From: Bacteroidales bacterium
GTDB lineage: Bacteria; Bacteroidota; Bacteroidia; Bacteroidales; UBA932
DNA length: 64,000 bases
Direction: 5' to 3'
Assembly (NCBI GenBank): GCA_015060455.1
Contig: SUYM01000018.1
Span: 1 to 64,000, forward strand
The translations under genes and the position numbers were made by a program. Positions 4,922 through 49,060 of this stretch are shown here, piece after piece. The notes beneath the pieces were generated by a model. The model made no database searches. It was not told where the DNA came from and worked only from the letters and a program-made list of their open reading frames with translations. The stretch's first letter is position 1. Each line of letters starts with the position of its first letter.

Positions 4922-4961
4922 ATCGTATAATTTTTCTCTTTTCTATATGGTTTTCTGTTTT

Positions 4962-10043: not shown

Positions 10044-10045
10044 GG

Positions 10046-11362
10046 TCAGTGACGGAGGCGAATAAGAATATAATTCAGACAACTCCTCTCGCCCCTCTTG
10101 TCTGAAGGCACAGACACAAGCCCGCCGCAGTCACGCACCCACATCGCAGACGAGCCGCCGCCGTCAAAACGGGTCATCTCATATCCGCCGAGTCTGAGTG
10201 ACGTCTGGGCCATCTCAACACTTTTCATTCCGCGGGAAACCTTGCTTCTGCCGTCCACCTGCACCAGCCACACCTTCCTGCCGTCCTTGCTTACGGTAAC
10301 GAAAGTCATAGGGTTATGTGTAGTAAGATTACTGTCATTCGGCTTCAGATTTTCGGAACTGACATCCTTACCCTCATGAAGAAATCTATGCATAGTGCTG
10401 ACCATGGCGACAATCGGTTTCCTGACCCCGCCCACAGTCACATCTGCACGTAACGATATCACATCACCCTCTTTCAGCATTGCCACGACCCTGTCAGCAG
10501 CCTCTCCGCGCAACTGAATACCCACCTGGTCCGGAGACTGAAGGTACGGCGCTTTGCTCAACCGAGAAGTTCTGCCGTCATAAACTGCTGTCACACGTGC
10601 CTTACTATACCCGCAGTTTACCTTCATCGGACCACGGACATACTGTGCGACCACATACACCACCGCCGAATCCAGCAGAGGATTGACAAGGTCTCGCCCC
10701 TCGTGAGGAATTTCCTTATATCTTGATGTATAGATGTTTACAGGAGAACCCACCTCGTCTCCCCGAAGGATATAATCGTTTATCGCATGATATTCGATCT
10801 CCTCCCTGCCCAGGCGGATCTTCCCCACAAAATCCTTCTGCCCCACCGCCGCAGTCCTGTCCTTGAAAACAGCAAAGCACCAACCGTGTCCTTTCCCGTA
10901 ACGCTGACGGATCTTCGGATGATTCTGATATATCGGTTCCCCGCCGGAAACGATGATGCCCCTGGCATATCCCAGATGAGAATCAAATCCGCAGGCATTG
11001 ATCCCGGCCACAACATCCGTCCCCTCCTCATTGTATCTGGAACCTATCTGACTCAGAGTCTCCCTGACACAGAATCCGTTGAGACGGTTGCGGTTACCGT
11101 TGGGATTGGGAATGATATCATCCGCAAAGACCGGCATTATCTCCACATTACGCCTGGACAGATCTATTTCCAGCACATTCATATTACGTGGAACATTATC
11201 CCACGAATATGCTGTATATACAACGCCTTTTGTGAGTTCCACGCGGGATTTCGCAGTCCACTGATAATACTCATCAGAAAGCATATCCGCGGGCTGGGCA
11301 CCGGCTGCCATATTAAACACAACGGCGGCAAAAGCCGCCGTCATAAAAGATATTTTACTCAT
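10046..11362 (-). CDS. Phosphodiester glycosidase family (NAGPA/DUF2233-like) secreted protein
   Basis: ADDIIPNPNGNRNRLNGFCVRETLSQIG, VAGINACGFDSHLGYARGI, TFVTVSKDGRKVWLVQVDGRS, MTRFDGGGSSAMWV. Confidence 0.85.
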   Translation of the reverse strand: MSKISFMTAAFAAVVFNMAAGAQPADMLSDEYYQWTAKSRVELTKGVVYTAYSWDNVPRNMNVLEIDLSRRNVEIMPVFADDIIPNPNGNRNRLNGFCVRETLSQIGSRYNEEGTDVVAGINACGFDSHLGYARGIIVSGGEPIYQNHPKIRQRYGKGHGWCFAVFKDRTAAVGQKDFVGKIRLGREEIEYHAINDYILRGDEVGSPVNIYTSRYKEIPHEGRDLVNPLLDSAVVYVVAQYVRGPMKVNCGYSKARVTAVYDGRTSRLSKAPYLQSPDQVGIQLRGEAADRVVAMLKEGDVISLRADVTVGGVRKPIVAMVSTMHRFLHEGKDVSSENLKPNDSNLTTHNPMTFVTVSKDGRKVWLVQVDGRSKVSRGMKSVEMAQTSLRLGGYEMTRFDGGGSSAMWVRDCGGLVSVPSDKRGERSCLNYILIRLRH

Positions 11363-12135
11363 TAGAACAAGTTGTTAAGCACATAAGCAAGTCTGTGACC
11401 GGCCTTGACAATCTGACTCTCGATAAGCGGAACCGCGATATTGAGTTCATCCTGACCGACAAGTGTGTCAGGCTTGACCAGATCCCACTGGATGTAGCAG
11501 TCCTTTGCGCTCTGTTCGAACCATTCCTGCGGAGTGCCTTTCACCCACTCCTTGACCTGTTTCTTATCCACTCTGTCAATTTCAGCAGCCCATTCGGACG
11601 CAGAGAAATATCGGGTATATTGGATGATTCCAAGATCCCATACAGTATGATAAGCCAGTTTCCTCTTCTCCCATGCGGGACCCACAAAAGCCTTGAACTT
11701 CTGACTCTTACCCTCATAATATATATGAACAGGGCAATGGAAGTCCCCGACAAGGTGAATGATATATTTCAGGTTGACCGCCACCGCAGAATCCGGAAGT
11801 TCCTTATAGTTCTTCAAAGCCTCAATGGCCAGATTGAGACCATATATAGCGTCACCGTCCTTGGCATTATGGACATATTTGAAATCCTTGTCAACACTTG
11901 CCACATGCCACTTTGTAGTGAAGCCATACTCAGGAGTGTGACGGTAGTCATCCATCCATTTTGCATAATAGACGATGGACTTTCCACCGAGATACTTCTC
12001 AATCTTCTTCTTTACAGAGGGTTTCAGATGATTCTCGGCAATTTTAGCAACGGTCTCATGAGCCTCGCGGCCAAAGCCGAAGGCAGGAGAGCATAATATC
12101 AGTCCTGCCAGAGCAATCAAAACTATACGTTTCAT
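11362..12135 (-). CDS. S1/P1-type nuclease, secreted
   Basis: Mature N-terminus FGREAHETVAKIAENHL, KWHVASVD, YIIHLVGDFHCPVH, AYHTVWDLGII. Confidence 0.88.
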   Translation of the reverse strand: MKRIVLIALAGLILCSPAFGFGREAHETVAKIAENHLKPSVKKKIEKYLGGKSIVYYAKWMDDYRHTPEYGFTTKWHVASVDKDFKYVHNAKDGDAIYGLNLAIEALKNYKELPDSAVAVNLKYIIHLVGDFHCPVHIYYEGKSQKFKAFVGPAWEKRKLAYHTVWDLGIIQYTRYFSASEWAAEIDRVDKKQVKEWVKGTPQEWFEQSAKDCYIQWDLVKPDTLVGQDELNIAVPLIESQIVKAGHRLAYVLNNLF

Positions 12136-12137
12136 GA

Positions 12138-13067
12138 TCAGTCGTGTCTTCCGATTGAACGAAGGTAATCGAGAAGCATTCCAGGACGGTCAGTCTGGAT
12201 CATCGTAGCACCCATGTCGATATACTGGCCATAAACATCAGCAGGATCTGCTGCCTCAAGAGCAGCGTCATCATCGTTTCCGAATCCGCCACACACTGAA
12301 GGCCAGAATGTATTCACCCAAAGTTTAGAACCCATCTTGTGGATTTCTGCCACACAGTTGTCCATCTCCTCACCGTTCTTCTTCCAGCACACCTCGAATG
12401 CGAGAGGAACAATACCTCTGTTCACATAGTCATAGAACAGTTTCTGTCCTTTTTCCTTATTGATATCGATGATAGGCATGTAGAGAAGGTTATTCTTGTA
12501 TGGGGCCATATCCTCAGCCACCTGATCAATGCTCTTCTTACCTTTCATGAGCACCTGACCTGTCATACCGAGTTCGTCAGCAAGTTCAACGATTTCCTTG
12601 TAATAGTCCTGAGCGTGATCGACATTGATAAGAATCCTGTCCTTGCAGCATTCAAATGCCTCACGAAGGGTAGGTACTCTCACGGAGTCAGTCGCCACAT
12701 TATGAGCCCTCTTCATTTTAAGTTTCTTGAGAGAGTCGAGCGTATAACTGCTCACCAGTCCCTTTCCGTTTGTCATACGGTCCACAGTCTTGTCGTGCAT
12801 AAGAACCAGAACGCTGTCGCTGGTCATCTTCACGTCAAGTTCCATCATATCACCACCCATACGTATAAGCGACTCGATTGCAGGAATAGAGTTCTCCGGG
12901 TAATTTCTCCAGTCACCGCGGTGAGAAATGACCATCACATAGTCGGAATTCGGATCATTCATTTCAGCGAGGATCTTCTCTACGCGGGTAGCGTACTTTG
13001 GCTGCTGTGCGCACGATGCGAGCGCCACAGAAGCGCACACCGCAAAAAGGAATTTGGTCAGTTTCAT
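12138..13067 (-). CDS. Glycerophosphodiester phosphodiesterase-family lipoprotein
   Basis: MVISHRGDWRNYPENSIPAIESLIRMGGDMMELDVKMTSDSVLVLMHDKTVDRMTNGKG; lipobox-like LASCA; start at MKLTKFLF. Confidence 0.92.
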   Translation of the reverse strand: MKLTKFLFAVCASVALASCAQQPKYATRVEKILAEMNDPNSDYVMVISHRGDWRNYPENSIPAIESLIRMGGDMMELDVKMTSDSVLVLMHDKTVDRMTNGKGLVSSYTLDSLKKLKMKRAHNVATDSVRVPTLREAFECCKDRILINVDHAQDYYKEIVELADELGMTGQVLMKGKKSIDQVAEDMAPYKNNLLYMPIIDINKEKGQKLFYDYVNRGIVPLAFEVCWKKNGEEMDNCVAEIHKMGSKLWVNTFWPSVCGGFGNDDDAALEAADPADVYGQYIDMGATMIQTDRPGMLLDYLRSIGRHD

Positions 13068-13151
13068 ATCATGTAGTTTTATTGGTTTTTCTGAAATTCT
13101 CACAAATATAATCAAACAAGTCGCAACAATGTTCTGCCTGCCTCAAAAAAA

Positions 13152-16100
13152 TCACCATCTGACACCATTCTCCCCGATGGTTTCAAAAGATGATGATGAG
13201 GCGGGAGCAGCCTTGTTGACCTCGACTGTCCCTCTGCCAAAATCATTGGTGACCACACTCTCGCTATATTGTTCCGCAGGGATGTACCCATCCTCTCCGA
13301 CAGTCTTTTTGGCTGAACTGAAATAGAACGATTTTTCCTGAGCGGAAGAAGATCCGGTTATATCACGCTCAATGGCAGAATGCGCCCCATAAGTCCAATT
13401 CCAGCCAATCTCCTGTACCATCCATCTTCCCGAGAACAGGGCGACACGCATGCTTGTGGACTTGCTCGCCGCATTGTCGGCTTCGGCATCCTCCGGACCA
13501 TAAAGCAATAACTCCGAATATGTAACCCATTTGTCATCCGAACCATCAGCAGGAGTGTCATTGTCATCCCAGCGGAATATACGATAAACAGCATTCTCGC
13601 CACGAAGAAGACCGCTGCGGACGATGGTCACATAGATGATTTCATGACCGATGGACAGAGCAAGATATTTTCCGGTATAAGTCCCGGACGGCACCTTATA
13701 TACAGTACTCTGAGCCGCAATGGCATCACGGTAACGGACAGCCGTATGACTTGCTCCGGCGATAGCCGTACCGTTGGCATAACCGGTATCATTCGTCATA
13801 TAATCCTCCACCCAGTACAGTTCCGAAGTCTTGGAATTATACCCCGAAAGAGACATGGAAGAAACGTTCGGAAGCGTTAAAGTAGTTCCATTGCCGTGCG
13901 AATAGATGTCGTCGGCCATAGTCTCTGCCATATTGTTATATATACCGACAGATGTGGGACTAAATTCTACAGTTGCATTATTCTGCATAAAAAGACCTCC
14001 GCCGACTCCCTGAAGAGCAAGTGAGTTACCGGAGACACCACCATAATTATCGACCGCATAGCCATAACCCGTACTCAACGTTTTACCTGATCTGTCAACA
14101 GCGCGGTTGTTTATGATAAGGGCATCAGTGAAAGTCAGGGAAGAGTTCCCTCCCGTAATAAAGATACCTCCGCCATCTCTCGAGGTGTTTGATATGATTT
14201 TGCCACCGGTAATATCCATCTCTCCTGCTGCCATATAGATTCCTCCACCCATTAGAGATGAATTTTCTTCTATAACACCATTACTAATTGTGACACTAAT
14301 ACTGTTACCATTCTCTGCAACTATACCACCGCCACATACTCCGGCTTTATTACCGCTTATGACACCGCCGGTTATACTCAAAGTACCGTTGCACATATAA
14401 ATTCCGCCACCATCATATCTCGCTTCGTTACCGCTTATGGCTCCATTTGTAAACTCCAGGTACGCAGTGTTATTCATATATACTCCGCCACCGAACGCAT
14501 TGGTGTCCGTACATTTATTCCTGATGATACTACCATTCGAGAAGTTACATCGGGAGTCCTGACAAAGATATATACCCCCGCCTTGATGATTTGAAGTGTT
14601 ATCGGATATTACACCGCCATTGAGCGTCACTACGCCGGCATCTGCGGCAAGTCCCCCACCTTGTGGAGCGCTGTTTCCGGATATGGTACCATTAGTTATA
14701 TTAACTCTGACATCGGAATTTCCTTTTCTTATGTATATTCCTCCACCTTTCAACGCTGCAGAATTTCCTGAAATGACAGGAGAGCCCTCACTCATGGTAA
14801 CATTTCCTTTTGCTGACAGCAGGATTCCACCTCCTCCTGCATAGGTCTCATTAGTACCAGTCGCTTTATTGTCCGTAATCTTTGTATCTCCGGAAATATT
14901 AACAGTAGAATTTGAGAATATTCCGCCGCCTCCGGTAGTGGCGGTATTTTTGCTTATGACTCCACCTGCAAGATTACAAGTCGCATTGGCATTAACGAAA
15001 ATTCCACCGCCATATGTTCCGGTATTACTGTCAATTGTTCCTCCCGATAAGCTGCAGGAAGAATAGTTCCCGAGAAAAATTCCACCGCCATATGTTCCGG
15101 CCGTATTGTTTCTGATTTCACCATTATTGACGGTCAGTACAGAATTTGCATTTGCGAGATAAATCCCTGCACCATACGCACCCGACTTATTATATGATAC
15201 TTCTCCCGACTCAATAGTCAATGTGCCATTCTTGACATAGATTCCTCCTCCGTTATTCGTACCGTTATTGCTTTTTACCGAGCCGCCAATCAGTTTTATG
15301 GTTCCGCTATCTAGGAAAATTCCACCGCCATTGTACGCTTTATTCGCATCTGCATCAGCATAAGCCTCACCTGCACCACCGATAACTCCATCCCTGAGCG
15401 TCATAACAGACTCTCCGGTACAAAAGATTCCGCCCCCTTCCGAGTCATCAGAAGAGGCAGTGTTTTTATAAATTTTTCCAGAACTCATCTCAAAGGTCGC
15501 CCCATCAGTGATATAAATACCGCCTCCGTCAGTCTTTGCCGTATTTTCATAAATCTCAGAGCCTGCCGCATCCGCATCGCAATAAATCGGAAGTTTTGAC
15601 ACCATTATACCGCCTCCGCCACCACCTGTTGACTCATTTTTGTAAATTTCACCGCCGTTAAGTCTGACCTTACACCTTGTCGCATCAAGATTTGCCTCCA
15701 ATCCCTCACTTGATGTTTCAGTCGGCCCTACCTGACAATAAATTCCTCCGCCACCTCCTGTCGCTTTGTTATCACGGATTTCACCGGCTTTGATATTAAG
15801 ATTGATATTCAGTTTGGAATTATTGTAAGTCAGAAAGATACCGCCGCCGTTTGCTGTAACCGTGTTGTCATATATCGAGGTCCCATCTATATTAAGATTT
15901 ATAGTTGAGTTCTGGTACAAAGAAGTCGTATTACGAAAATTCAGACACATTCCGCCACCGTGTTTAGCGGTATTGCCATATATTTTCAATTTGTTGTCGA
16001 AGTTCATATCAAGCACCTTCGGCTGACTGAAACTCACACCATTGTAAGTTATCACATATACGCCTCCCCCATAAGTAGCGGCCTTGTTGTTATAAATTTG

Positions 16101-17207
16101 GCTGACGTTTCCCGTGAACTGAAAGGTGCCGGAAAACATTGCGCCTCCGGCATAAGTCCCAGCCTGATTATCATAAATGTTACAGCCATTCAATGTCGTA
16201 CAAGTTTCCTCCACACCCTGAGCCGAGGCAAGCAGTCCTCCGCAATAACCCGCGACATAGTTATCACGAATATTCGAATTGGTGATTATAGTATGTCCGA
16301 CCACACCGCCTCCGGTTCTGATAGTGCCGCAGACCCCGCTACTTCTTGCGTAATTTTGGTAGAACAAACAATCTGTTATTGTTGTCTTGCAACTTTCAGG
16401 AGTGTTGGACAAGCCAGACTGCCCCTGGCGCTGATTGTAGATAATTATTGCAGGAGCAGAGCGGGCATAGCAGTTTCGTATGTGGACATTTTTCAATGTC
16501 ATCGGACCGAACTTTGTGTTCGAATTATCCAGCCAGTTGATCGTGGGTCTCACGATTGCCGCACCATCCCATAATGAAAAAGCAGAAGCAATTTTTGCAC
16601 ATTCCATTTCGAGAGTCCCGACAACGTACAACACTCCTCCCGACTTGCGATACTCATTATTGTTTTCTGAGTCCTTCCCTGTTACCGGTCCGCGAAAGTT
16701 GTAGATAAACTTAGTCTTATCGGAAGCGTCCGGAAAGTACTTATAACCCAAATGAGTATAATTATATAATTCTTCGACCGCCGCCGCCTGAAAAACGCCA
16801 TCATCATCCATTGGGGTAGCCGGTTCCGAACCTGTACTTCCTTTGATGGCAATAAAATCGTTACCTATATTATTGCCGATTATCTTAAGTGTACCTCCCT
16901 CCTGCACTTCAAACACACAATGTACGGAACCGTCAGGCACAGCAAAGTCCGGGTCAAGATAAACTTGGACATAACTCGAACCTGTCGGATAGCCGGGCTT
17001 TTTCTTTATGGTCAACGTTATCCCACTGGGAATTACTATAGGAGCCTTAATCTTCACATGTCCCTCCAAGGTGACAGTCTTACTTTGGGTCATAGTTCCG
17101 CCGCTCCACTGCCCGCTTGTGGGGAAGGTAGGGGCTGCCGCGCATTCAACACTGAATGCAGCCGCACCCAGAATTAAAATTGCTATTATAGAAACAATTC
17201 TTTTCAT
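13152..17207 (-). CDS. Giant right-handed beta-helix protein with many GGGI(Y/F) repeats (polymorphic outer membrane protein-like), secreted
   Basis: Dozens of NTGTYGGGIFVNANATCNLAGGVISKNTATTGGGGIF type coils; SPI-like signal MKRIVSIIAILILGAAAFSVECAAA; non-repeat C-terminal ~250 aa. Confidence 0.85.
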   Translation of the reverse strand: MKRIVSIIAILILGAAAFSVECAAAPTFPTSGQWSGGTMTQSKTVTLEGHVKIKAPIVIPSGITLTIKKKPGYPTGSSYVQVYLDPDFAVPDGSVHCVFEVQEGGTLKIIGNNIGNDFIAIKGSTGSEPATPMDDDGVFQAAAVEELYNYTHLGYKYFPDASDKTKFIYNFRGPVTGKDSENNNEYRKSGGVLYVVGTLEMECAKIASAFSLWDGAAIVRPTINWLDNSNTKFGPMTLKNVHIRNCYARSAPAIIIYNQRQGQSGLSNTPESCKTTITDCLFYQNYARSSGVCGTIRTGGGVVGHTIITNSNIRDNYVAGYCGGLLASAQGVEETCTTLNGCNIYDNQAGTYAGGAMFSGTFQFTGNVSQIYNNKAATYGGGVYVITYNGVSFSQPKVLDMNFDNKLKIYGNTAKHGGGMCLNFRNTTSLYQNSTINLNIDGTSIYDNTVTANGGGIFLTYNNSKLNINLNIKAGEIRDNKATGGGGGIYCQVGPTETSSEGLEANLDATRCKVRLNGGEIYKNESTGGGGGGIMVSKLPIYCDADAAGSEIYENTAKTDGGGIYITDGATFEMSSGKIYKNTASSDDSEGGGIFCTGESVMTLRDGVIGGAGEAYADADANKAYNGGGIFLDSGTIKLIGGSVKSNNGTNNGGGIYVKNGTLTIESGEVSYNKSGAYGAGIYLANANSVLTVNNGEIRNNTAGTYGGGIFLGNYSSCSLSGGTIDSNTGTYGGGIFVNANATCNLAGGVISKNTATTGGGGIFSNSTVNISGDTKITDNKATGTNETYAGGGGILLSAKGNVTMSEGSPVISGNSAALKGGGIYIRKGNSDVRVNITNGTISGNSAPQGGGLAADAGVVTLNGGVISDNTSNHQGGGIYLCQDSRCNFSNGSIIRNKCTDTNAFGGGVYMNNTAYLEFTNGAISGNEARYDGGGIYMCNGTLSITGGVISGNKAGVCGGGIVAENGNSISVTISNGVIEENSSLMGGGIYMAAGEMDITGGKIISNTSRDGGGIFITGGNSSLTFTDALIINNRAVDRSGKTLSTGYGYAVDNYGGVSGNSLALQGVGGGLFMQNNATVEFSPTSVGIYNNMAETMADDIYSHGNGTTLTLPNVSSMSLSGYNSKTSELYWVEDYMTNDTGYANGTAIAGASHTAVRYRDAIAAQSTVYKVPSGTYTGKYLALSIGHEIIYVTIVRSGLLRGENAVYRIFRWDDNDTPADGSDDKWVTYSELLLYGPEDAEADNAASKSTSMRVALFSGRWMVQEIGWNWTYGAHSAIERDITGSSSAQEKSFYFSSAKKTVGEDGYIPAEQYSESVVTNDFGRGTVEVNKAAPASSSSFETIGENGVRW

Positions 17208-17250
17208 GTATCTTTTATGTTGATGTTTGGAAGCACCTGACCTTCCGGTT

Positions 17251-21531: not shown

Positions 21532-21536
21532 AGCAG

Positions 21537-21659
21537 TTACTCCTTTTCTGTTTCGTCATAAATAAAATCCAGGTCACCGATTCCGTTGACCGAGCCGCAA
21601 AGAATGCCGGCGCTTTCCAATTCTGTCACTGCCAAAGCAGGAGACTCATACTTTTTCAT
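21537..21659 (-). CDS. 40-aa mini-ORF upstream of giant lipoprotein
   Basis: Reverse complement reads MKKYESPALAVTELESAGILCGSVNGIGDLDFIYDETEKE*; stop lies 5 nt before the next start codon; homologous to 53287-53418. Absent from supplied ORF track (below length cutoff). Confidence 0.7.
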   Translation of the reverse strand: MKKYESPALAVTELESAGILCGSVNGIGDLDFIYDETEKE

Positions 21660-21695
21660 AATGACTTAATTTTAATGTTATTTGTGTTTATTATG

Positions 21696-24600
21696 TTATC
21701 TGGTTATATAGTATTTCGATTCGTTTCCAAGCACTGTATCTTCCGCAACTGCGCGCAGTTTTGCCGTATATGTAGGGTTCAGTCCGCAGTCTGCCGGCGT
21801 TGAGCCGAACGGCTCACCGTAGAGAACAAGATAGTTCACGCAAGCCTTCAGATACGCTCCGTAAGGTCCCTGGTGCTTGACATCCGAGTGATAAAGTTCT
21901 ATCTCAGGGTGTCTTTCCCTCGCAAGTTTGAATGCCTGACCGATAGGAGACACCGGAGAGCCTATGCTTTTGGCAATGGACAGAGAGCCGGACAGAAGCA
22001 GGTTGTCGAAGTTCTCGAAACTGGTAAATCCGCCATAATTCCCATTAGACCCGGCAAATGACCATGTGTTTTCAAGGATGACATTACATGTCGGCACCTT
22101 TGCAAGAATCTTGTCCTTAAGTGCCTGTGAATTGGTCAGAGTCGCCGCATTGGCTGTCTTGTCTGAAGCATAATTTGCATGCGCTGAGCTCTGATCCTGA
22201 ATGAAAGCATAATGGAACTTACCCATGTTGATAGCTACTGTAGTCAGCCAAAGTTCCAGATGATTTGCAAAAGTCTGGCTACCTTTGAAGTGTCCGAACA
22301 TCTCGATCTTATGACCTTCGGCGAAAGCGATCTCGACAAGTTTCCACGACGGGTCGTGATAGTGTGAGAAAGAGTTGCCGATCGCCAGAACCCTCTTGGT
22401 GTCTTTCGGATCCTTGTTGCCCATTATGTTCACATAACTGCCGGTAAAGCCCATTGGAGCAAGAGAGCAAGTTCCGTCCTCAGAGGTCAGGCTCAGTTTT
22501 CCGCCGCTGCATGAAACATCGACAGGCACGCGAAGACGGATCTTCATCGAAGAATTGATGAACTCATCCTCGAACTTGAGGACATGAGTGAAGGTAGAAT
22601 GCTGATATTTTCCTCCGTTCTGCACGCCGAACACCGCGAAAGAATATTTCTTGGTGTTGTCCTCAGAAACTGTCCTCAACAAGGAGGCCTGCTTCCACTG
22701 TCCCTGGTCATAATATTCAAGGATATAATACTTCGGCGAATCCTGTCCGCCGGCAATAGTAGCATTGAACAGGACATATGTACCGGCCGGAACGTAATCT
22801 ACAGGAAGAGTCCACAGCCAGTAGTCGTCCTTGAGAAGATTTCCTACGTATGGCCTTGCAGATGTTCCTGACCCGTCGACAGCCATACAGTTGAAGGCCT
22901 TCGAAGCATTAGCCTCGGCACGGACCACTGAGATTGTCGCCGGAGACGAATATGTGCAAGGTATCCTGTTATAATTCACCCACTCGCTTTCATATAACTG
23001 CCTTGAGGTAGCGGAAAACTGCCACAGAGCAGGGAAGGTAGGAGCGGCTTGAACAACCTGATCGCCCCATCTTATGTTAAGCGGCGTCACATAGATGGCA
23101 GAGGCGTTATGAACGCCGATATAGTCGAAATAGTTATAAGCATTTGTCCCGGTCATCTTGTAAGAGCCGTCGTTGTATGTTCCAAGGTCTCCCTGACATA
23201 CGCAGTCTCTGAAAATTGACTCATTGTTGCACTGACCGAAGAATGTTCCCTTGTATGAAGCGTGATCTGTGATGACATCGCCATAGTTCTCCACTCCGCT
23301 GAACAGACAATCGTCTCCGCTTACAAGACATACCACGCCTGCTGCGGCTCCCTTGGTGGTGCAGACCACATCACCATGGTTCACCGTATTGAGTATCTGA
23401 CACTCTGCGCCTGTAATGCAAGTCACAGCACCGATACGTGCAGAGCCGGAAGTCGCATAACTGTTGGTTATATTTCCTTTGTTCTCGCAGTCCTGAACAG
23501 TTGTATATCTGTTGCAGGCTGCCACAATTGAAGAGGTTCTGCCTGTTGCAGAAGTTATGTTTCCGTTATTCTCGCAGCCGCTGACAACCACCCGGAGTTT
23601 GCTGTCCGCATGGTTGGTACCGAAGCCCAGAATACCGGAAATATGAGCAGCGTCACCGTTGTTCTTGACGTTTCCGCCACCGGCAGCAGCAATAGCGGCA
23701 TTGTTTGTAATTCTGCTGATTTCCACCTCTGAATTCTGCGCAAATGCAAGTCCGACTACACCCATGGTGGTCCTCTTTTCGGCCGCGCCTGAATTGAACT
23801 GCATAGGAGCATTGTTCACGACATTCCTTACCGCCGCATCATACACAAGACCGGCAACAACGCCAGCCTGAACATCCGTCGTCGCATTGACTGTGAGTGA
23901 AGATGTCACATCCATCACAAGGTTCTCCACTACGGCACCGCTTCCAAGAGTTCCGAAGAGGCCGTAAGTCGAGCCGGCAACAGAACTTGTGCAGACCATA
24001 TCGAGATTCTTGATTGTGTGGCCGTTGCCGTTGAAATGACCTGTAAATGCTGTTCCTGTCACCGTAAGTTTATTGGACGAAAGTGTATGGGTCGCATTTC
24101 CGATAGGTGTCCATGTCTTTCCGGACATATCGATATCTGCAAGCAGGGTAACTACACCCGACATATTCATAAACTTGGAATAATCCTTTTCGGAATTTAC
24201 AAGAGTCGCAAATTCAACGAGTTCGTCAGCCGTCCTGATGCCGACCGCATCAGGTCCGATATAGATAATATTGGAAATCTTCTCTTTATCCGCAGCATCC
24301 TGGCTTGAACCGATGTAGGTCATATAGTTGGATGAATTTATTTCTATCTGCTGATGCTCTCCGCCATTATAACTGTACATCGAACCACCTGCAACCACAT
24401 CGGACATGCTCTTCAGATCTGAGAACCAAGCGACAAGAAGGCCGCGTCCGTTGGTGCAGTCACTCACTATCTTTCCATAGTTGCCACCGCCGGTAAGAGA
24501 AACCTGAGAAGAATTCATAATTCCGACAAGTCCACCGACCCTTGAATATTTACCTGACACCTGAGTCGCCGTCATTATCGCATTACCATGGTTCTCACAA

Positions 24601-26342
24601 TCGGTCACAGTGCTGTTTCCAGCCATCGCAGAAGTCACCATGCCCACTCGCGTATTATTGTAGGAATTGGTCTGATTGCCATAATTTATGCAGGCAATCA
24701 TATCCGTACGATGATTGGTGGTCGCAACTATTCCGGAAGCACGTTCCATATCAACAGTCATGTCACCATAATTGACACAGCCGCTTATGGTGTTCCTGCC
24801 GGAAGTCGCCGAGCCGTTCGCCGCACCGGCAATACCGCCGGCCATTACAGAAGTTGCACCGCCGGCACTTTGATCACGCTGTCCTGAAACAGCACCATAA
24901 TTTATCAGATTCTCCAGTACGCTGCCTGTCTCGGCATTATAGACAAAACCTGCAAACGCACCCATTGTTGTTCTTTTTCCCGAAACTGAATTACCCTTTA
25001 CATTCATCGGGATATAATTCGTACAGTTGCGGATGACCGAACCATAGCAGACTCCGGAGAGAATACCGGCATCGGAAGTTGCATCAGCCGAAAACTCAAA
25101 AGAACTGTTATCATTTTCCGGTGCACCCAAAACGATATTTTCTACGACCGCCCCATCTAGAATACCGAACAAGCCATACACTGCTCCTTCCGCAGTCAGG
25201 TCTTTTGAAAGTTTGAGATTCCTGATCGAGAATCCCTGACCGTCGAACTTGCCTTTGAATGAAGAACCGGAGTAAGAGCACACATTATCACCTGTCATCT
25301 GACCGGTAAAAGTACCGTTTCCTATCGGAGTCCAAGAAGTCACACCGGACATATCGATATCATCCAGAAGCACCACCTTGCCCTCGTCGTTCATATACTC
25401 AAGAAAACTGGCGCCGCTGTTTACGGCAGCCGCGAAATCAACAAGGTCCCCAGCAGTGGAGATACCACCGGAAAATGGGAAAATCGCCCTTGCAAGGTGC
25501 TGAACGGCATATCTTCCGTTATTTTCAACATAGGTAGAGAGACCTGTCTTATAGACATTCTTCTGATAGACCGTACCGTCCTCAAGGGTAAGAGTAAGTT
25601 TAAGACCCTTGGACGAAGTGAAACGGCCCACAGGGAACTTGAGAGTCTGAGGTTCACGAAGTTCTGTGCCGTCCGGAAGATTAAGAGTCAGGCTGTTGCC
25701 TGTCGAAGATGTTTCAAGGGCAAGAGTGGAAGCATCCACTGTCGCCGAACAAGTAAGATAACCCGAAAAATCACTGCCGTCAGCAGGTTCCACCTTAAGA
25801 GTCCTGGCAGGACTGTTCACATGATAGCCGGCCGCATCGATACGAAGTTCCACAACGGAAAATATGTTCTGGAAATACATGTTCAGAACGCCGTCTTCCA
25901 TAGTCTCGGCAGATGTCGATCCCACAAGTGGAGCACAGGCAGAATTGACCTGTCCTTCCTTCTGGAAAGCGATATTCCTTTCGGCTGCAATGCCGACAGT
26001 CCCGTCTTCTGCGCTGAGAGCCTGATAATATGCCACCAGACCTGTGCCATCATAACTGGTTATACCGGCTGAACTGGTGAAATAAGTCTGCTCGCCGTCC
26101 TCTGAAGGAGTGCCTGCGACGTATTCGTAAGCATCACCGTTGTAGAGGACTGTGATCTTGTCGCCCGCTTCCCAGGTGCTCTTACCCTCGTTGATGTCTG
26201 TCTTGGTCATCGGAGTACAGTCGGCCTTGATGACAAGGTACTTTGACACAGGAACCATCGTCGAGCCTTCCGGTTCGATCTCGCGGGCGCAACCGCAAAG
26301 GATGGCGGCAACGGCCAGAATGGAGAACAATAATCTCTTCAT
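21696..26342 (-). CDS. Giant lipoprotein: fimbrillin-like N-domain + two GLUG/NYG modules + unassigned domain + C-terminal SGNH/DUF4886-like domain
   Basis: LCGCAREIEPEG lipobox; start reset from 26498 to MKRLLFSILAVAA; C-terminal KRVLAIGNSFSHYHDPSWKLVE...ELYHSDVKHQGPYGAYL. Confidence 0.82.
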   Translation of the reverse strand: MKRLLFSILAVAAILCGCAREIEPEGSTMVPVSKYLVIKADCTPMTKTDINEGKSTWEAGDKITVLYNGDAYEYVAGTPSEDGEQTYFTSSAGITSYDGTGLVAYYQALSAEDGTVGIAAERNIAFQKEGQVNSACAPLVGSTSAETMEDGVLNMYFQNIFSVVELRIDAAGYHVNSPARTLKVEPADGSDFSGYLTCSATVDASTLALETSSTGNSLTLNLPDGTELREPQTLKFPVGRFTSSKGLKLTLTLEDGTVYQKNVYKTGLSTYVENNGRYAVQHLARAIFPFSGGISTAGDLVDFAAAVNSGASFLEYMNDEGKVVLLDDIDMSGVTSWTPIGNGTFTGQMTGDNVCSYSGSSFKGKFDGQGFSIRNLKLSKDLTAEGAVYGLFGILDGAVVENIVLGAPENDNSSFEFSADATSDAGILSGVCYGSVIRNCTNYIPMNVKGNSVSGKRTTMGAFAGFVYNAETGSVLENLINYGAVSGQRDQSAGGATSVMAGGIAGAANGSATSGRNTISGCVNYGDMTVDMERASGIVATTNHRTDMIACINYGNQTNSYNNTRVGMVTSAMAGNSTVTDCENHGNAIMTATQVSGKYSRVGGLVGIMNSSQVSLTGGGNYGKIVSDCTNGRGLLVAWFSDLKSMSDVVAGGSMYSYNGGEHQQIEINSSNYMTYIGSSQDAADKEKISNIIYIGPDAVGIRTADELVEFATLVNSEKDYSKFMNMSGVVTLLADIDMSGKTWTPIGNATHTLSSNKLTVTGTAFTGHFNGNGHTIKNLDMVCTSSVAGSTYGLFGTLGSGAVVENLVMDVTSSLTVNATTDVQAGVVAGLVYDAAVRNVVNNAPMQFNSGAAEKRTTMGVVGLAFAQNSEVEISRITNNAAIAAAGGGNVKNNGDAAHISGILGFGTNHADSKLRVVVSGCENNGNITSATGRTSSIVAACNRYTTVQDCENKGNITNSYATSGSARIGAVTCITGAECQILNTVNHGDVVCTTKGAAAGVVCLVSGDDCLFSGVENYGDVITDHASYKGTFFGQCNNESIFRDCVCQGDLGTYNDGSYKMTGTNAYNYFDYIGVHNASAIYVTPLNIRWGDQVVQAAPTFPALWQFSATSRQLYESEWVNYNRIPCTYSSPATISVVRAEANASKAFNCMAVDGSGTSARPYVGNLLKDDYWLWTLPVDYVPAGTYVLFNATIAGGQDSPKYYILEYYDQGQWKQASLLRTVSEDNTKKYSFAVFGVQNGGKYQHSTFTHVLKFEDEFINSSMKIRLRVPVDVSCSGGKLSLTSEDGTCSLAPMGFTGSYVNIMGNKDPKDTKRVLAIGNSFSHYHDPSWKLVEIAFAEGHKIEMFGHFKGSQTFANHLELWLTTVAINMGKFHYAFIQDQSSAHANYASDKTANAATLTNSQALKDKILAKVPTCNVILENTWSFAGSNGNYGGFTSFENFDNLLLSGSLSIAKSIGSPVSPIGQAFKLARERHPEIELYHSDVKHQGPYGAYLKACVNYLVLYGEPFGSTPADCGLNPTYTAKLRAVAEDTVLGNESKYYITR

Positions 26343-26368
26343 ATTTCGGTTATCAGTTGTTAGTTTAC

Positions 26369-26513
26369 AGATCCTTCGACTCCACTTCGTTCCGCTCAGG
26401 ATGACAAAAGGTCGCTTCGTTCCGCTCAGGATGACAGTGTGGCACTTCGTTCCGTTCAGGATGACAGTGTGGCACTTCGTTCCGTTCAGGATGATCACAT
26501 TGTCATGTTGAGC
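26369..26513. repeat. Short tandem array, core CACTTCGTTCCGTTCAGGATGACAGTGTGG
   Basis: Four near copies; last two nearly identical. Same GGATGACAG core as the 9801-10043 array. Confidence 0.9.
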
Positions 26514-26617
26514 ATCGTCGAAACATCTGTTTCTTTAAACGGGAGCAACCGTGGACCGTCTGAGGTCCACGATTGAATCCGTCAAAATGTGTATTTCAAG
26601 CCCCGTAGGGCGTATTA

Positions 26618-28696
26618 TCAGTTGGTCGGAGCAGTTCCGAACTTGATGTTAGCCTGAGTGGCATTAGTAGCATCGGCGCCAATCTGACCGACATAGTTCC
26701 AATAGTTGGAAGATGTAAGTGCTGTTACCTGATAGGTTCCTCCATTATATTTGCCGAAAGAACCACCTGCGATACAGTTTGTAAAGGTTGCAGCCTTGTT
26801 GCAGCTTCCAAAGAATACTCCACAATAGGTCTTGGCAGTACGGTCGGTAATCACTCTACCGTAGTTTGCTACGTTCTCATATACATTTGAAGCATCATTT
26901 ACCAACGACACAATACCGGCCACAGCACCAGAGTTTGTTGATATCACATCACCATAATTGGTTGAGTTATAAATTGAGGAGCCGGCTCCTGTGATACACG
27001 TGATATTTCCGATACGACATGCTGCCCCTGCCGTCTCAGTCTTCTTACTGAATGTATTCTTGTTATTTCCGTAGTTTGTACAGCCGCGGATGACGGTGTA
27101 TCTGTTAGCTGCCGCTACGATACCGGAAGCACGTGCCGTTGCCGACTCAATGTTTCCTTTATTAATACAAGACTTGACCTCAACTGTCTTGGAACTGCTC
27201 GCATCATTTGTACCGAATGCCAGAACACCAGCCACCTGAATGGCTGCTGCGCCATTCTGATTAGAACCTCCGTCAGTAGCAGTAACATCGGCATTGTTAG
27301 TAACATTCTCGATTGTCACACCTGTGTTCTTCGCATTTGCAAAACCGACAACAGACATGGTAACCCTTGCACCACATGTTCCAGTAAAGTTCATCTTGGC
27401 ATTGTTGGTGATGTTACGGACTATCGCATCCTCTGCCAGACCCGCCACAACACCACAGTCTGTCGATGCTGTAACAGCGACATCAAGTGAACAAGTCGCA
27501 TCAAAAACAATGTTCTCGACAACTGCACCTTCTCCCAACGCACCGAAGAGTCCAAAGACACCTCCTGCAGTCGAATTGGTTGTCTTCATCTTGAAATTTT
27601 TGATCTTGTTGCCCTGTCCGTCAAAATATCCTGTGAACTGCTTGCCACTTGTACATGTCAACACGTTAGCGGCCCATGTAAATACAGATGAACCGATTGG
27701 CGTCCATGTAGTCACGCTCGACATATCAATATCCTGCAGCAACACGACCTTGCCTTCTGCATTCATCCACTTCGTATAATCTGCACCTGTATTCACAGCA
27801 TTTGCAAATGCAACCAGATCAGTGGCAGAAGAAATTCCACCAGGATTTGCAAAAGCATATACAGGTTTCGCCAAATGAATTGCAGAATACACTCCTGCAC
27901 TCGACTTCTTATATGAAGTAAGGCCGGTCTTGTAGATATTCTTCGTATAGGTACTGTTGTCATTTGTGGTCATCGTCAGTTTCAAACCGGAATTTGTGGT
28001 GAAACGACCCACAGGCACCTTGATGGTCATAGCCTCGGTCAAAGACGTGTTGGCTGGGAAGGTAAGTGTGATCTTGTTAGAAGTCGAAGTTGTCGTAACT
28101 TCACGAGTCTCAGCATTGACAGAACCCTTTCCTGCAAGATAACCGGTAAAGTCAGAAGCGTCGGCTGGCTCAACAGTCAGAGTCTTGGCCGGAGAAGTAA
28201 GTTCTCCCGCATCAACCCTGATTTCAAGTACAGAGAAGACATTCTCAAACACCATTGCAAGTTTACCTCCAGTCAAATTGCCAGTGTTTGGAACACCTAC
28301 AAGTGGAGCTTTTGAAGAATTTTCCTGAGTGCCGCTCTGGAACGTGAGCGTTGTTGCCGAAGGAACTTCAACTCCCCCTCCGTTTACGGCAGGATAATAA
28401 GCGACACACGACTTTGTCGCATCATAGGTAGTGATTCCGGCTGTACTTGTAAATGTGGTGGTAGCACCGGCCGTAGAAGCCGTATAAGTATATGAATTCC
28501 CGTCATATACGACAGTTATCTGATCTCCGGCTTCCCAAGATGTCGCACCATTTGTGACATCCGTCTTAGTTACGGGAGCCTGAGCCTCAATGACAAGATA
28601 TTCGGATGCGATGTCCTGAGCATTGTCAAGTTCTCGCTCACATCCGCACACAAGTGCGGACAGAGCGGCAAGCGTATATATAAATATTCTTTTCAT
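26618..28696 (-). CDS. Lipoprotein: fimbrillin-like N-domain + GLUG/NYG module, no C-terminal enzyme
   Basis: VCGCERELDNAQD lipobox; TKTDVTNGATSWEAGDQITVVYDG; CTNYGNNKNTFSKK, NSTNYGDVISTNSG coils; ends after the module. Confidence 0.82.
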   Translation of the reverse strand: MKRIFIYTLAALSALVCGCERELDNAQDIASEYLVIEAQAPVTKTDVTNGATSWEAGDQITVVYDGNSYTYTASTAGATTTFTSTAGITTYDATKSCVAYYPAVNGGGVEVPSATTLTFQSGTQENSSKAPLVGVPNTGNLTGGKLAMVFENVFSVLEIRVDAGELTSPAKTLTVEPADASDFTGYLAGKGSVNAETREVTTTSTSNKITLTFPANTSLTEAMTIKVPVGRFTTNSGLKLTMTTNDNSTYTKNIYKTGLTSYKKSSAGVYSAIHLAKPVYAFANPGGISSATDLVAFANAVNTGADYTKWMNAEGKVVLLQDIDMSSVTTWTPIGSSVFTWAANVLTCTSGKQFTGYFDGQGNKIKNFKMKTTNSTAGGVFGLFGALGEGAVVENIVFDATCSLDVAVTASTDCGVVAGLAEDAIVRNITNNAKMNFTGTCGARVTMSVVGFANAKNTGVTIENVTNNADVTATDGGSNQNGAAAIQVAGVLAFGTNDASSSKTVEVKSCINKGNIESATARASGIVAAANRYTVIRGCTNYGNNKNTFSKKTETAGAACRIGNITCITGAGSSIYNSTNYGDVISTNSGAVAGIVSLVNDASNVYENVANYGRVITDRTAKTYCGVFFGSCNKAATFTNCIAGGSFGKYNGGTYQVTALTSSNYWNYVGQIGADATNATQANIKFGTAPTN

Positions 28697-28708
28697 ATCA
28701 GACCGGAT

Positions 28709-32947: not shown

Positions 32948-32959
32948 ACTTACGAGATT

Positions 32960-35437: not shown

Positions 35438-35455
35438 CTTCTTATAGTTTGAAGG

Positions 35456-38400
35456 TTATTTCGCTCTCACAAGGAGGTAGTTCATACAACTGCGCTCTCC
35501 CCTGCTGTCTGACGGATTGCTTACAATCTTTCCGTCCACCCACATTGAAGAGGAACCGCCACCGTCGAAACGGGTCATGTTATGACCACCGAGTTTCTTG
35601 ATGGTCGCCGCCATTTCCGGTGCAGTCATACCCAATGATGATGAACTTCTACCGTCAACCTGCACGATCCACACCTTTGTTGTTGCCGCATCGCAACCGA
35701 TAAAGGTTACAGGGTCATACGTGTTGAGGTTTCCATTGTCGGCTCCCAGACCTGAAAGGGTAACAGATCCGTTGTTAAGGAACTGATACATAGAAGAGTT
35801 TATTGTATAGATAGGCTTGGTGCTGTTGCCGTCGATTGCAATGTCGCACTTTATCTCTATCTCGTCTCCTACGCTTACAGAAGCCTTGACAGCATCTGCC
35901 ACATCGCCACGGATCTGGATACCGATGGTCTTCTTGTCTGAGATATAAGGAAGGTCGGCAGAGGCGATCGCAGACGAGCGTCCGTCAAGAATCTTTGTGA
36001 CCTTTGCCTTATGATAACCAGTATTCACATGGAGATAGTCACCAGTGAACTGAGCCAGCACATAAAGACATTTCTTCGACAGCGGGTTAGTAAGACCTGA
36101 GTGAGGGGTCTTCTTGTAGTGATGAGTATAGATGTTCGACTTGAGAGCATCCGAACCATGACGGCAGATGGTGTCGTTGATAGAGTAATACTCATACTCA
36201 GTGCCTGCAACCTTATATTTACCTGTAAACTCCTTGACACCACAACTTGATGTCTTGTCTGTAAACTGGGTGAAGCCCCATTTGTGGTTGGTCAGATTCC
36301 AGCGGACAGTCCTGTTGTTCACATACATAGGAACACCTTCCTGTACATGGATACCACGTGGGAATCCGTCATGTGAATCGAAGAATCCTGAGTTGACTCC
36401 TGCCACGACGCCTGTGCTTTTAAGTCTTGCACAGACCTCTGAAAGAAGTTCACGCTTGTTCTTTCCGCTGTTATTGTTGTCGTTTCCGTTAGGGTTAGGA
36501 ATGATGTCATCAGCCATTGCAGTGGTGATCTCCACACCGGACTTGGTGAGGTCAATCTCCAGAATCTTCATCTTACGTGTGATGCCACGAGTCCACTCGA
36601 CTGCCATGTACTTGACGCCGGAATGGAGTTCCTTGGTAGTCTTCACATCCCAGTTGCAGTACTTGGTGCTGCCCCAGTTGACCCAGTTTGTAGGCTCATA
36701 ACCGCTGGTCATGCCGCTTACGAACTTGTAGTACTGAGTTCCATGTCTTACTGCATTGTCGTGAAGTGCGATGTCCGCAGCTTCAAGGTTGTCCTTCTGG
36801 GCGTAGGTAGCAACACGGCCGTAACCGTAGCACGTCTTGATGTCGGAACTTGTATAACCGCATGCCCAGCCCGGACCGTGAAGGTTGCCGCTTGCATCTG
36901 TAACGACGTCTCCTATGATATTTCCCTTAGAAAGGTCCTTCTCGGCACCATTGGTACAATTCTGAACCTTACCCTTGGCATTGTGACCCACAAATCCACC
37001 GCAACGGCAGCCTACATGAGTGAGGACTGTGCCGAGGTTGGTACATCCGTCGATTGTAGCATTCTGGTCCGTCGCGCCGACAAGACCGCCCATACGCTTG
37101 TGATCATATCCCTTGTCTTCCGACTTATACTGGGTACCATCCTCAATCATTCCGTTGTTGACACAGGCAGACAGACGACCTTTGATGATGGTTCCGCAGA
37201 TACCGCCCGAACGTCCGGTAGGACATGCAAGGTGTCCGTTGTTGACGCAGGCAGTTATGTTTGTCGTTCCATTTTCAGAAGCATGGGCACAGATACCGCC
37301 GATGTTGACACCGGTCAGACCGTTCTTCTTGTTGGTTATCTCAGTAATGACAATGTCTCCGTTGTTGACACAGGCAAGTTCGCCTGCTCCGCCGATGGTC
37401 GAGCCGTCAGACTGAGCAACTATACCTGAAAGCATCAGAAGCGCCTCGCTTGGGTTTGTTCCCGTGAAATTGATGTCAAGGTTGTTGGTACACTTAGCGA
37501 TGACAGCCTCTCCCTTTGCAAAGGCAACTACCGGAGCAACAGCAGTACCGTTGTTTGCGGTTCCTGTGATTGTCCAACTTTCGCCGTCCTCACCTACGAT
37601 GAGGTTCTCTACAGAACCGCCGTCAACGACACCGAAGATACCGGTGTATTTCTGTGAGGTAACGTCTGTCGAGAACTCGATGTTCCTGATGGTTTTACCA
37701 TTACCGTTGAATTTGTCTCCCCACGGATGGTCTTCTGTTCCGATCGGAGTCCATGCTGTGAAACCAACCATGTCGAGGTCCTGAAGGAGGGTGATGAGCC
37801 CGGTTGCAGGGTCACGGAATCTCTTGAGCGATGCGCCTGCGTTTACGGCTACTGCAAACTTCTGGAAGTCCTCGACTGTCTTGATGCCGTAATAATCCGG
37901 AACCATAGCACGGTCGCCGATATACACCGGACGGATGAGCACGTTTCCTTCGGCATCAGCGATCATGAGATTGAAACCTCCTTCTTCAAATCCTGCCGGG
38001 AAGGTCACGGTGATGGTCTTCGCCGAAGCGTCAAGAACCGCCGTAAGCGATGTCTGACGGGTAATCTTGATTATTGTCTCGTCTGCTGACGGTCCGGTAA
38101 GCGTGTAACTGAGAGTCAGACTGCGGCTTGCCGGCATTGTCAGCAGGTACTGGTTCAGAAGTTCTGTCTGACCGTCGAACACTCCGATGCTGAATGCCTC
38201 GAAGAGATCCACAGTCACAGTCGAGCCATCACCGAGAGTGATGAGACCCTTTCCGTCGGCTGTCTTTTCAACCTTGGAAATAACAGAAAGTTCCTTTCCT
38301 TCCGCCTTGATAGGGTTTCCGGAAGCGTCCTTCATGAGGGCACCGTTGACTGTCCAGTATCCGTCACTGTTCACATCGAAAGTAGGTACACGGCCGGCAA

Positions 38401-38797
38401 CAGCCACATTCGCACCGTCGAGGTCCTTGAGAAGTTCACCGTTGATTGTCCAGTAAAGTACACCCTCTTCGGTCTTTGTTCCTATGACAGGAGCAGTAGT
38501 CACTTCGTCCTTCGAAGCGATTGTGATGGTATGCTCGGTGTTGTCCGCACCCTTGTAGCGAACCACATAACCGCCATCCTCCGCTGCGGAGATACCGGTT
38601 ATGGCACCGCTTGAAATCACAGCGGAAACCAACTCCACCTGCTGTGACACGGCCTCAACCATCGGCTGGATCTTGGTCAACTCGTTGTATGCCTTATCGA
38701 CGTCGTCCCAAAGTTTTGAGTCGTCGTACTTGTCACAACCGGCTGCCAGCACCAGGAGGGCAGAAGCACAAAATGCAAGTATCTTATTATATTTCAT
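35456..38797 (-). CDS. Lipoprotein: DUF4988-like N-domain + GLUG repeats + C-terminal phosphodiester glycosidase (DUF2233-like)
   Basis: AAGCDKYDDSKLWDDVDKAYNEL; MKILEIDLTKSGVEITTAMADDIIPNPNGN...GVNSGFFDSHDGFPRGI...MTRFDGGGSSSMWVDGKIVSNPSDSRGERSCMNYLLV. Confidence 0.85.
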   Translation of the reverse strand: MKYNKILAFCASALLVLAAGCDKYDDSKLWDDVDKAYNELTKIQPMVEAVSQQVELVSAVISSGAITGISAAEDGGYVVRYKGADNTEHTITIASKDEVTTAPVIGTKTEEGVLYWTINGELLKDLDGANVAVAGRVPTFDVNSDGYWTVNGALMKDASGNPIKAEGKELSVISKVEKTADGKGLITLGDGSTVTVDLFEAFSIGVFDGQTELLNQYLLTMPASRSLTLSYTLTGPSADETIIKITRQTSLTAVLDASAKTITVTFPAGFEEGGFNLMIADAEGNVLIRPVYIGDRAMVPDYYGIKTVEDFQKFAVAVNAGASLKRFRDPATGLITLLQDLDMVGFTAWTPIGTEDHPWGDKFNGNGKTIRNIEFSTDVTSQKYTGIFGVVDGGSVENLIVGEDGESWTITGTANNGTAVAPVVAFAKGEAVIAKCTNNLDINFTGTNPSEALLMLSGIVAQSDGSTIGGAGELACVNNGDIVITEITNKKNGLTGVNIGGICAHASENGTTNITACVNNGHLACPTGRSGGICGTIIKGRLSACVNNGMIEDGTQYKSEDKGYDHKRMGGLVGATDQNATIDGCTNLGTVLTHVGCRCGGFVGHNAKGKVQNCTNGAEKDLSKGNIIGDVVTDASGNLHGPGWACGYTSSDIKTCYGYGRVATYAQKDNLEAADIALHDNAVRHGTQYYKFVSGMTSGYEPTNWVNWGSTKYCNWDVKTTKELHSGVKYMAVEWTRGITRKMKILEIDLTKSGVEITTAMADDIIPNPNGNDNNNSGKNKRELLSEVCARLKSTGVVAGVNSGFFDSHDGFPRGIHVQEGVPMYVNNRTVRWNLTNHKWGFTQFTDKTSSCGVKEFTGKYKVAGTEYEYYSINDTICRHGSDALKSNIYTHHYKKTPHSGLTNPLSKKCLYVLAQFTGDYLHVNTGYHKAKVTKILDGRSSAIASADLPYISDKKTIGIQIRGDVADAVKASVSVGDEIEIKCDIAIDGNSTKPIYTINSSMYQFLNNGSVTLSGLGADNGNLNTYDPVTFIGCDAATTKVWIVQVDGRSSSSLGMTAPEMAATIKKLGGHNMTRFDGGGSSSMWVDGKIVSNPSDSRGERSCMNYLLVRAK

Positions 38798-38809
38798 TTC
38801 TATAGGATT

Positions 38810-40603: not shown

Positions 40604-40618
40604 AACTCTTTCCTCCAT

Positions 40619-43600: not shown

Positions 43601-43927
43601 TACGATCTTGTAAGGAAGCGGTTCATTTCCTGTCATTGCAACCTCCACATCAGAATATCCGATGTAAGAGACAACAATCTTCGCCGGAAATGAGACGTTT
43701 TCCAATACGTAATTACCATCAAGGTCTGTGATAGTGCCCTGCGTGGTGCCTGCTACGACCAGGGATGCTCCGATAAGAGGCTCTCCCGATGAGTCGGTGA
43801 CTACACCACTGATGGTCTTCGTTGTCTGCGCCAACATACCAAGCGGTATCAGAAGCGCGACAAAGGCAATTAAGAGTTGCCCCCCCCTGATGTGGGATCT
43901 TCTCCTGCTGGAATTGCTTTTCATCAT
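40619..43927 (-). CDS. SusC/RagA-family TonB-dependent transporter
   Basis: TISGVVTDSSGEPLIGASLVVAGTTQGTITDLDGNYVL (CPBP/DUF4480-like), VVIGYGTQKKTSLSGAV, INIRGGLSLNSGSPLVLADG, C-terminal TFSIGLDIQF. Confidence 0.96.
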   Translation of the reverse strand: MMKSNSSRRRSHIRGGQLLIAFVALLIPLGMLAQTTKTISGVVTDSSGEPLIGASLVVAGTTQGTITDLDGNYVLENVSFPAKIVVSYIGYSDVEVAMTGNEPLPYKIVLDDSANVLEDVVVIGYGTQKKTSLSGAVGIVSGKELNARPVVSAANALQGADPSVNITFGTGSPESSNTINIRGGLSLNSGSPLVLADGVEVNLSQINPNDIESVSVLKDASTCAIYGAKASAGVVLITTKQGKRGDNARVQYNGRYGWQMNTTSTDFMTVGYDHVTLVNEFMANSSDSVHDIFLYTEANGGLQKLYERRNDVTEHPDRPWVEVGDDGKYYYYGNFDWYGYFYNRVRPQTEHNVSVSGGSEKISYYASGRYLMQDGMFRIQQDRYTDIAFRAKFSAQMFKWLKYSTNVAFDSSTYKYGGHNNYEGTFGALQANITPAWVPTNPDGTIVQYVNQLGKNSPIGTGRGGHMTAGTGNNSKANRYLTIQNSLDIKPYKDLTFTIAYDYRQRDRLYRYRNDTFEYSRQQGVLTEFTSGAVANTYQESHYGYKGHNLNIYGNYEHDWNGHYFKVTAGGQYETYRSTNLVVANTELTNEDLSSFTVANGIPTVDQEISAYKTLGFFARANYDWKGRYIVEASARADGSSRFAPGSRWAFFPSASAAWRISEENFFRPAKNVVSNMKLRFSAGSLGNQQVSNYAYIETISPGNEMEYTFDGKTYGLYASVSDPLSSGLTWETVTTYDLGVDLGFLEDRLSVTGDVFIRDTKNMLTTSLTLPDVYGANTPKANCADLRTKGWELVVSWRDDFKLLGKNFSYNVSATVGDYVTHITKYHNPEGIIGNHYVGERLGDIWGYKVEGLFKTDREAAEYSKVIDDTAVNQRVRNGNPACGNYLRAGDVKFIDVNGDGKINSGSGRIDDHGDMVIIGNSNPRYNYSFRLGFNWMGIDVSAFFQGVGHRDWYPANGQSSYDFWGPYAFPPTAFIHESFADNTWTEDNRNAYFPRRRGYNAYSSGALGTTNDRYLQNLAYLRFKNLTVGYTLPQELTRKAKIEQIRVYFSGENMCYWSPLKKHTMTMDPELGGTTGTSTDNSGVGYAYPRTFSIGLDIQF

Positions 43928-48964: not shown

Positions 48965-49027
48965 TTTATTGGTTATTAAGTTGTTTCTTGAGTCAAACGT
49001 GCAAATATAGCAAGAATTATGTAGAAT

Positions 49028-49060
49028 AAAAAACTCCGGTATCCTTTCGGACCCGGAGTC
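49028..49060 (-). terminator. Intrinsic terminator after the alpha/beta hydrolase gene
   Basis: Minus strand GACTCCGGGTCCGAAAGGATACCGGAGTTTTTT. Confidence 0.8.

Follow-up and report, generated by a model that had tools for sequence, protein, structure and literature searches.

What would a SusCD-type nutrient-uptake locus handle if it encodes no glycosidase or lyase? Known utilisation loci are defined by these two kinds of enzyme. In a 64,000-nucleotide stretch of Bacteroidales DNA (hereafter the window), a run of twelve main genes plus a single ORF of 40 aa, about 34 kb and all on the minus strand, occupies positions 10046-43927 (Table 1), and a preliminary description had proposed a phosphodiester-containing glycopolymer as its substrate. 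Our analysis, which reads function from sequence and predicted structure, makes it probable that the locus serves uptake of phosphodiester-linked glycoconjugates rather than of ordinary glycosidic polysaccharides.

Table 1. Genes of the locus, listed from the SusC end, and the GH20 gene of the adjacent locus.
Feature	Position	Strand	Basis
SusC-type TonB-dependent transporter, 1102 aa	40619..43927	-	Pfam: Plug, beta-barrel
SusD-type surface lipoprotein, 602 aa	38810..40618	-	Pfam, E 1e-41
DUF4988 + GLUG beta-solenoid + NAGPA domain, probable lipoprotein, 1113 aa	35456..38797	-	Pfam NAGPA E 8e-20
DUF4988 + GLUG, without recognised catalytic domain, 825 aa	32960..35437	-	Pfam; alignment
DUF4988 + GLUG + DUF4886 (SGNH hydrolase; GNSF, DGYH motifs), 1412 aa	28709..32947	-	Pfam E 1e-29
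Unmatched N-terminal domain + GLUG, probable lipoprotein, 692 aa	26618..28696	-	translation; without Pfam match
N-terminal domain + GLUG + jelly-roll + divergent DUF4886/SGNH esterase domain	21696..26342	-	sequence, Pfam, alignment, model
Putative mini-ORF, 40 aa, MKKYESPALAVTELESAGILCGSVNGIGDLDFIYDETEKE, ahead of next DUF4886 gene	21537..21659	-	sequence
N-terminal domain + GLUG + DUF4886 (GNSF/DGYH), lipoprotein, 1426 aa	17251..21531	-	Pfam E 8e-31
Beta-helix protein, Chlamydia-PMP-type (Chlam_PMP) repeats, 1351 aa	13152..17207	-	Pfam
GDPD + DUF4996 glycerophosphodiester phosphodiesterase, lipoprotein	12138..13067	-	Pfam E 4e-26 / 5e-27
S1/P1-type nuclease, 257 aa, signal peptide	11362..12135	-	Pfam E 5e-34
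NAGPA phosphodiester-glycosidase-family protein, 438 aa, signal peptide without lipobox	10046..11362	-	Pfam E 2e-17
GH20, in adjacent 47528-63995 locus	62481-63995	-	Pfam E 8e-115

Adjacent SusC and SusD genes, both recognised by Pfam, head the cluster. Intergenic gaps measure 0-18 bp from SusC through the gene at 26618, after which a repeat-bearing gap of about 275 bp separates this gene from those downstream, so a single transcript for the whole locus is not established. Tandem repeats with units of 30-51 bp lie in intergenic DNA at 26383-26494, upstream of the 26342 gene, at 9815-10044, adjoining the end of the locus, and at 4949-5148; an Rfam search of the window returned no matches. A lipobox-like cysteine was recognised by eye in most of the locus proteins, the standalone NAGPA protein and the nuclease having none. 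The gene order, strand and domain calls of the preliminary description were essentially right by Pfam and the ORFs, and the mini-ORF that it listed was found in the sequence; the start of the SGNH gene and the significance of the GLUG calls needed revision. The SGNH gene likely starts at ATG 26342 rather than GTG 26498, because the frame from the latter runs through the 30-bp repeats. GLUG calls within 10046-43927 fall below Pfam significance, Glug being reported by Pfam solely in a neighbouring protein (49911-53360) and in relatives.

The two NAGPA proteins were assigned to their family by Pfam matches above cut-off, by conserved motifs and by structure comparison. Across 24 homologues, the DGR, DGGGS and D..GERSC motifs are near-invariant. 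An AlphaFold model of the protein at 35456-38797 (pLDDT 78.9, pTM 0.54) combines a beta-solenoid with a NAGPA fold; its GLUG region is predicted to be mainly beta and solenoid-like. Its structural matches are 6ozd from Burkholderia, 3ohg from Bacteroides and the animal NAGPA structures 6pku and 6u11, at identities of just 12-19%. No characterised specificity of a bacterial NAGPA was found in the open-access literature searched, and given this and the low identity, the sugar released could be other than GlcNAc. Among relatives, single proteins fuse NAGPA to a GDSL esterase (L105:3-1478) or to a histidine acid phosphatase whose match is just under the Pfam cut-off (L164:1539-3542); separate acid phosphatases are found at L133 and L159.

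Five further proteins contain GLUG regions. DUF4988 opens the proteins at 28709, 32960 and 35456, and those at 26618, 21696 and 17251 have in common another N-terminal domain, one that Pfam does not match; 26618-28696 and 21696-26342 gave no Pfam family at 0.001. For the second of these, which had been described as a fusion of GLUG and SGNH, the SGNH assignment was upheld. An AlphaFold model of its C-terminal 471 residues, together with nine relatives (pLDDT 82.9, pTM 0.86), shows a jelly-roll domain alongside an SGNH esterase, with 4i8i, a DUF4886 protein of Bacteroides uniformis, as best solved match. The model also matches jelly-roll and SGNH carbohydrate and peptidoglycan O-acetylesterases of the CE2/Ape1 type, and conservation extends to the GNSF and DxxH motifs.

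Pfam detected no GH or PL within 10046-43927, where SGNH carbohydrate-esterase-like domains are present. The earlier statement that no recognisable GH occurs thus holds inside the locus and not beyond it, a GH20 gene lying in the adjacent locus. Hidden GH or PL folds in the giant proteins had been raised as a possibility; none was seen in the two that were modelled, the 21696 C-terminus and the NAGPA fusion at 35456-38797, which match SGNH esterase and NAGPA instead. GH98 was also considered for the NAGPA fusion and rejected: the matches are weak, spanning about 170 columns in the compact ones, and the model outside the NAGPA domain consists mainly of beta strands.

The GDPD domain scores above cut-off and bears the HR...E.D...H motif, and the GDPD+DUF4996 protein matches 3i10 (E 1e-60). 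The S1/P1 nuclease matches 8qjl (E 3e-15) and, beyond its family match, displays the Zn-ligand pattern of His and Asp residues, as judged by eye in the alignment. The beta-helix protein at 13152-17207 was not found in related loci (gene tally, 78 loci). EEP homologues, which occur in relatives, retain the family residues N, E, H, D, N, D and H (pattern by eye); a single EEP sequence matched no solved structure, and an EEP profile matched just LINE-1-type endonucleases, weakly. The GlpT-like MFS has GlpT (1pw4) as its best match (E 6e-46), and comparison with the named transporters of NCBIfam gave below-cut-off matches alone. In the window, this MFS gene belongs to another SusCD locus, distinct from the first, at 47528-63995 (minus strand), which also contains GDPD, GLUG+SGNH, alpha/beta hydrolase, PKD-propeller protein, sigma/FecR and GH20 genes; the transporter could serve both loci. 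A BNR/sialidase-like repeat protein (PF13088) is encoded at 383-1759 of the window, also on the minus strand.

Judged from gene order, the locus is a discrete module, cleanly inserted between two housekeeping genes. The order GHMP-SufD-SufC-PnuC-SufB-HPPase / NagB_PIGL-NagB of the window also occurs in the related genomes G052 and G050, and G059, whose contig begins within SufB, has the order SufB-HPPase / NagB_PIGL-NagB as in the window. HPPase and NagB_PIGL lie about 80-205 bp apart in these three genomes, compared with 34.8 kb in the window. In G041, an orthologous locus is located elsewhere in the genome and the HPPase/NagB_PIGL site is empty. At the same site in G055, a lone GDPD-DUF4996 gene (L180:8830-9870) lies between NagB_PIGL and HPPase. 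The adjacency to NagB was considered as functional evidence and set aside: HPPase and NagB are adjacent without the locus in L177-L179, so the two nagB-type genes are old neighbours that say nothing of function.

Of 200 genomes in the genus, 30 were found to encode the NAGPA subfamily. In a species-representative collection, the core recurs in 78 loci, nearly all from gut Bacteroidales and including a few overlapping or same-genome pairs. Many carriers are named from rumen or herbivore gut samples; a few are Alistipes, Rikenellaceae, Proteiniphilum and Bacteroides records, and two carriers, Bacteroides sp. GM023 and Alistipes montrealensis kh20, are not MAGs. The recurrent order is sigma-(EEP)-FecR-SusC-SusD-GLUG/NAGPA-GLUG-GLUG/DUF4886-(GDPD)-(S1/P1)-(GlpT-like MFS), and one locus (L106) presents sigma, EEP, FecR, SusC with STN, SusD, NAGPA, GLUG, DUF4886, GDPD, S1/P1 and MFS in a single run. 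Counts over these loci, many of them cut by contig ends, are lower bounds, since length-based ORF picking swapped a few SusC/SusD genes for antisense ORFs: NAGPA in 74 of the 78 loci (a constancy that follows from its use as the query), SusD in 62, SusC in 56, DUF4886 in 40, EEP in 30, GDPD in 15, MFS in 13, S1/P1 in about 5 and GH20 in 2. In 62 loci, the gene immediately after NAGPA is a GLUG homologue. Such recurrence of the core set and its order is more than chance. Within 20 kb of NAGPA matches, homologues of GDPD (8 versus 0.77 expected), EEP (21 versus 1.91) and MFS (6 versus 0.83) exceed random expectation about 7-11-fold, where the expectation assumes that genes are placed uniformly over about 2.3 Mb, and genomes that are closely related do not count as independent. 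In 8 of 34 cases, no more than 3 kb separates the MFS from GDPD. Each of the three is missing from many loci, partly through contig truncation.

SusC orthologues in L037, L079-L081, L106 and L108 are 73-78% identical, and SusD orthologues 60-65%. The window SusC is without the N-terminal STN signalling domain that relatives have. A search beside the window copy for a linked regulator, be it SusR, sigma/FecR or a hybrid two-component system, found none, while sigma/FecR accompanies many related loci. With EEP, sigma/FecR and STN missing, control of the window copy may differ from that of its relatives; the MFS, too, is absent from inside it. The same genome contains further SusCD-NAGPA loci (L029, G000:C12; L032, G000:C6; L034, G000:C28); a purple-acid-phosphatase-like gene lies upstream of one of them, and another has GH20. 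In Bacteroides sp. GM023 (L169), the NAGPA locus is adjoined by an MFS, a glucosamine isomerase, two GH20 genes and an amidohydrolase that reads as NagA-like, a GlcNAc-operon neighbourhood seen in this one case. The open-access literature searched on NAGPA/DUF2233 together with Bacteroidota or SusD describes no such locus.

The conserved SusCD-NAGPA core, the enrichment of GDPD, EEP and the GlpT-like MFS, and the protein fusions strengthen the phosphodiester theme of the preliminary description, whose overall interpretation is partly supported; we favour a phosphodiester mechanism for the locus. It is the combination of predicted sugar-1-phosphodiester cutting, ester removal, glycerophosphodiester splitting, and import by SusCD and a GlpT-like MFS that points to phosphodiester-linked glycoconjugates. 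In the proposed pathway, surface lipoproteins (GLUG beta-solenoids, SGNH esterases and GLUG-NAGPA) would bind the polymer, remove ester groups and cleave sugar-1-phosphate diesters, and SusC/SusD would take the fragments in. In the periplasm, the second NAGPA would free a sugar, probably GlcNAc, and GDPD would free glycerol-3-phosphate; leftover phosphate esters would be handled by the S1/P1 nuclease or, in relatives, by EEP and acid phosphatases. Glycerol-3-phosphate would then enter the cell through a GlpT-like antiporter, whose gene belongs to the cluster in relatives and to the neighbouring locus in the window. GlcNAc and glycerol-3-phosphate are thus the most likely products under this scheme. 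The leading, still unproven, candidate for the substrate is a polymer of the teichoic-acid type, or else a different glycerophosphate/GlcNAc-1-phosphate glycan, from other microbes of the gut. Wall teichoic acid would fit, since a GlcNAc-1-phosphate linkage, glycerophosphate and ester-linked alanine all occur in it, and we name teichoic acid itself only tentatively. A slightly broader proposal, to which we give guarded credence, is that of a widespread gut-Bacteroidales SusCD system that would release GlcNAc and glycerol-3-phosphate from the sugar-phosphate polymers of neighbouring microbes, whether of the teichoic-acid type or another.

Several of the same enzymes could instead serve lipids. 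In scavenging of glycerophospholipid or GPI/phosphoinositide head groups, SGNH enzymes would deacylate, GDPD and EEP would split head groups and the GlpT-like MFS would import glycerol-3-phosphate, in keeping with the adjacency of GDPD to this MFS, the conserved catalytic motifs of EEP and the SGNH domains. We consider this unlikely, as the conserved NAGPA is left unexplained, the SGNH model is nearer to DUF4886 and carbohydrate/peptidoglycan esterases than to phospholipases, and SusCD systems normally import glycans. A eukaryotic phosphoglycan, such as yeast phosphomannan or the GlcNAc-1-P/Man-1-P glycans of rumen protozoa, would give NAGPA a reaction like the animal uncovering reaction. The fold match to animal NAGPA is consistent with such a target, as is the origin of carriers, by record titles, largely from ruminant and herbivore guts, which are home to fungi and protozoa; yet the cluster has no mannosidase, and GDPD and the GlpT-like MFS would have no evident role, which leaves this target similarly improbable.

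General scavenging of phosphate or nucleotides from mixed phosphodiesters, extracellular DNA included, with sugar release incidental, would draw on the S1/P1 nuclease here and on the acid phosphatases and EEP of relatives. The rarity of S1/P1 among the 78 loci counts against it and also makes extracellular DNA the weakest of the substrates that the preliminary description had listed; moreover, the most frequent genes after the query-chosen NAGPA are SusD, GLUG and DUF4886, so we regard such scavenging as quite improbable. Finally, most of the coding length is repeat-rich beta-solenoid and several N-terminal domains have no match, as might be expected of a surface adhesion or remodelling locus (GLUG solenoids, beta-helix) in which the enzymes play just an accessory part, perhaps in altering the capsule of the cell itself; with SusC/SusD heading the cluster in most relatives and the enzyme motifs conserved, this seems very unlikely.

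If the enzymes do act on phosphodiesters and esters, the concept of a utilisation locus would extend to polymers linked through phosphate, teichoic acids for example, and the walls or glycans of other microbes would be a source of carbon and phosphate that gut Bacteroidales recycle. The locus also provides a handle on bacterial NAGPA, DUF4886, DUF4988 and DUF4996 proteins, and the non-MAG carriers may make direct testing feasible.

Compared with known systems, the locus resembles the SusCD-type PULs of Bacteroidota in placing SusC/SusD first, with surface lipoproteins and periplasmic enzymes downstream, and in the sigma/FecR control of its relatives, but differs in its cargo of NAGPA, SGNH esterases, GDPD and nuclease, without GH or PL inside. 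With glpTQ-type glycerophosphodiester use (GDPD and GlpT) it has in common a GDPD-DUF4996 gene that adjoins a GlpT-like MFS in several relatives; here, however, GDPD lies in or near a SusCD cluster, and the MFS of the window sits in the neighbouring locus. Its NAGPA proteins have the fold and the DGR, DGGGS and PSD motifs of the NAGPA/DUF2233 family (6pku, 6u11, 3ohg, 6ozd) but form a divergent subfamily of about 410 aa with extra segments, usually fused to GLUG. Similarly, the C-terminus of the 21696-26342 protein adopts in its model the domain fold of CE2/Ape1-type jelly-roll and SGNH esterases and of DUF4886 4i8i, whereas its sequence is divergent and its esterase role is a predicted one.
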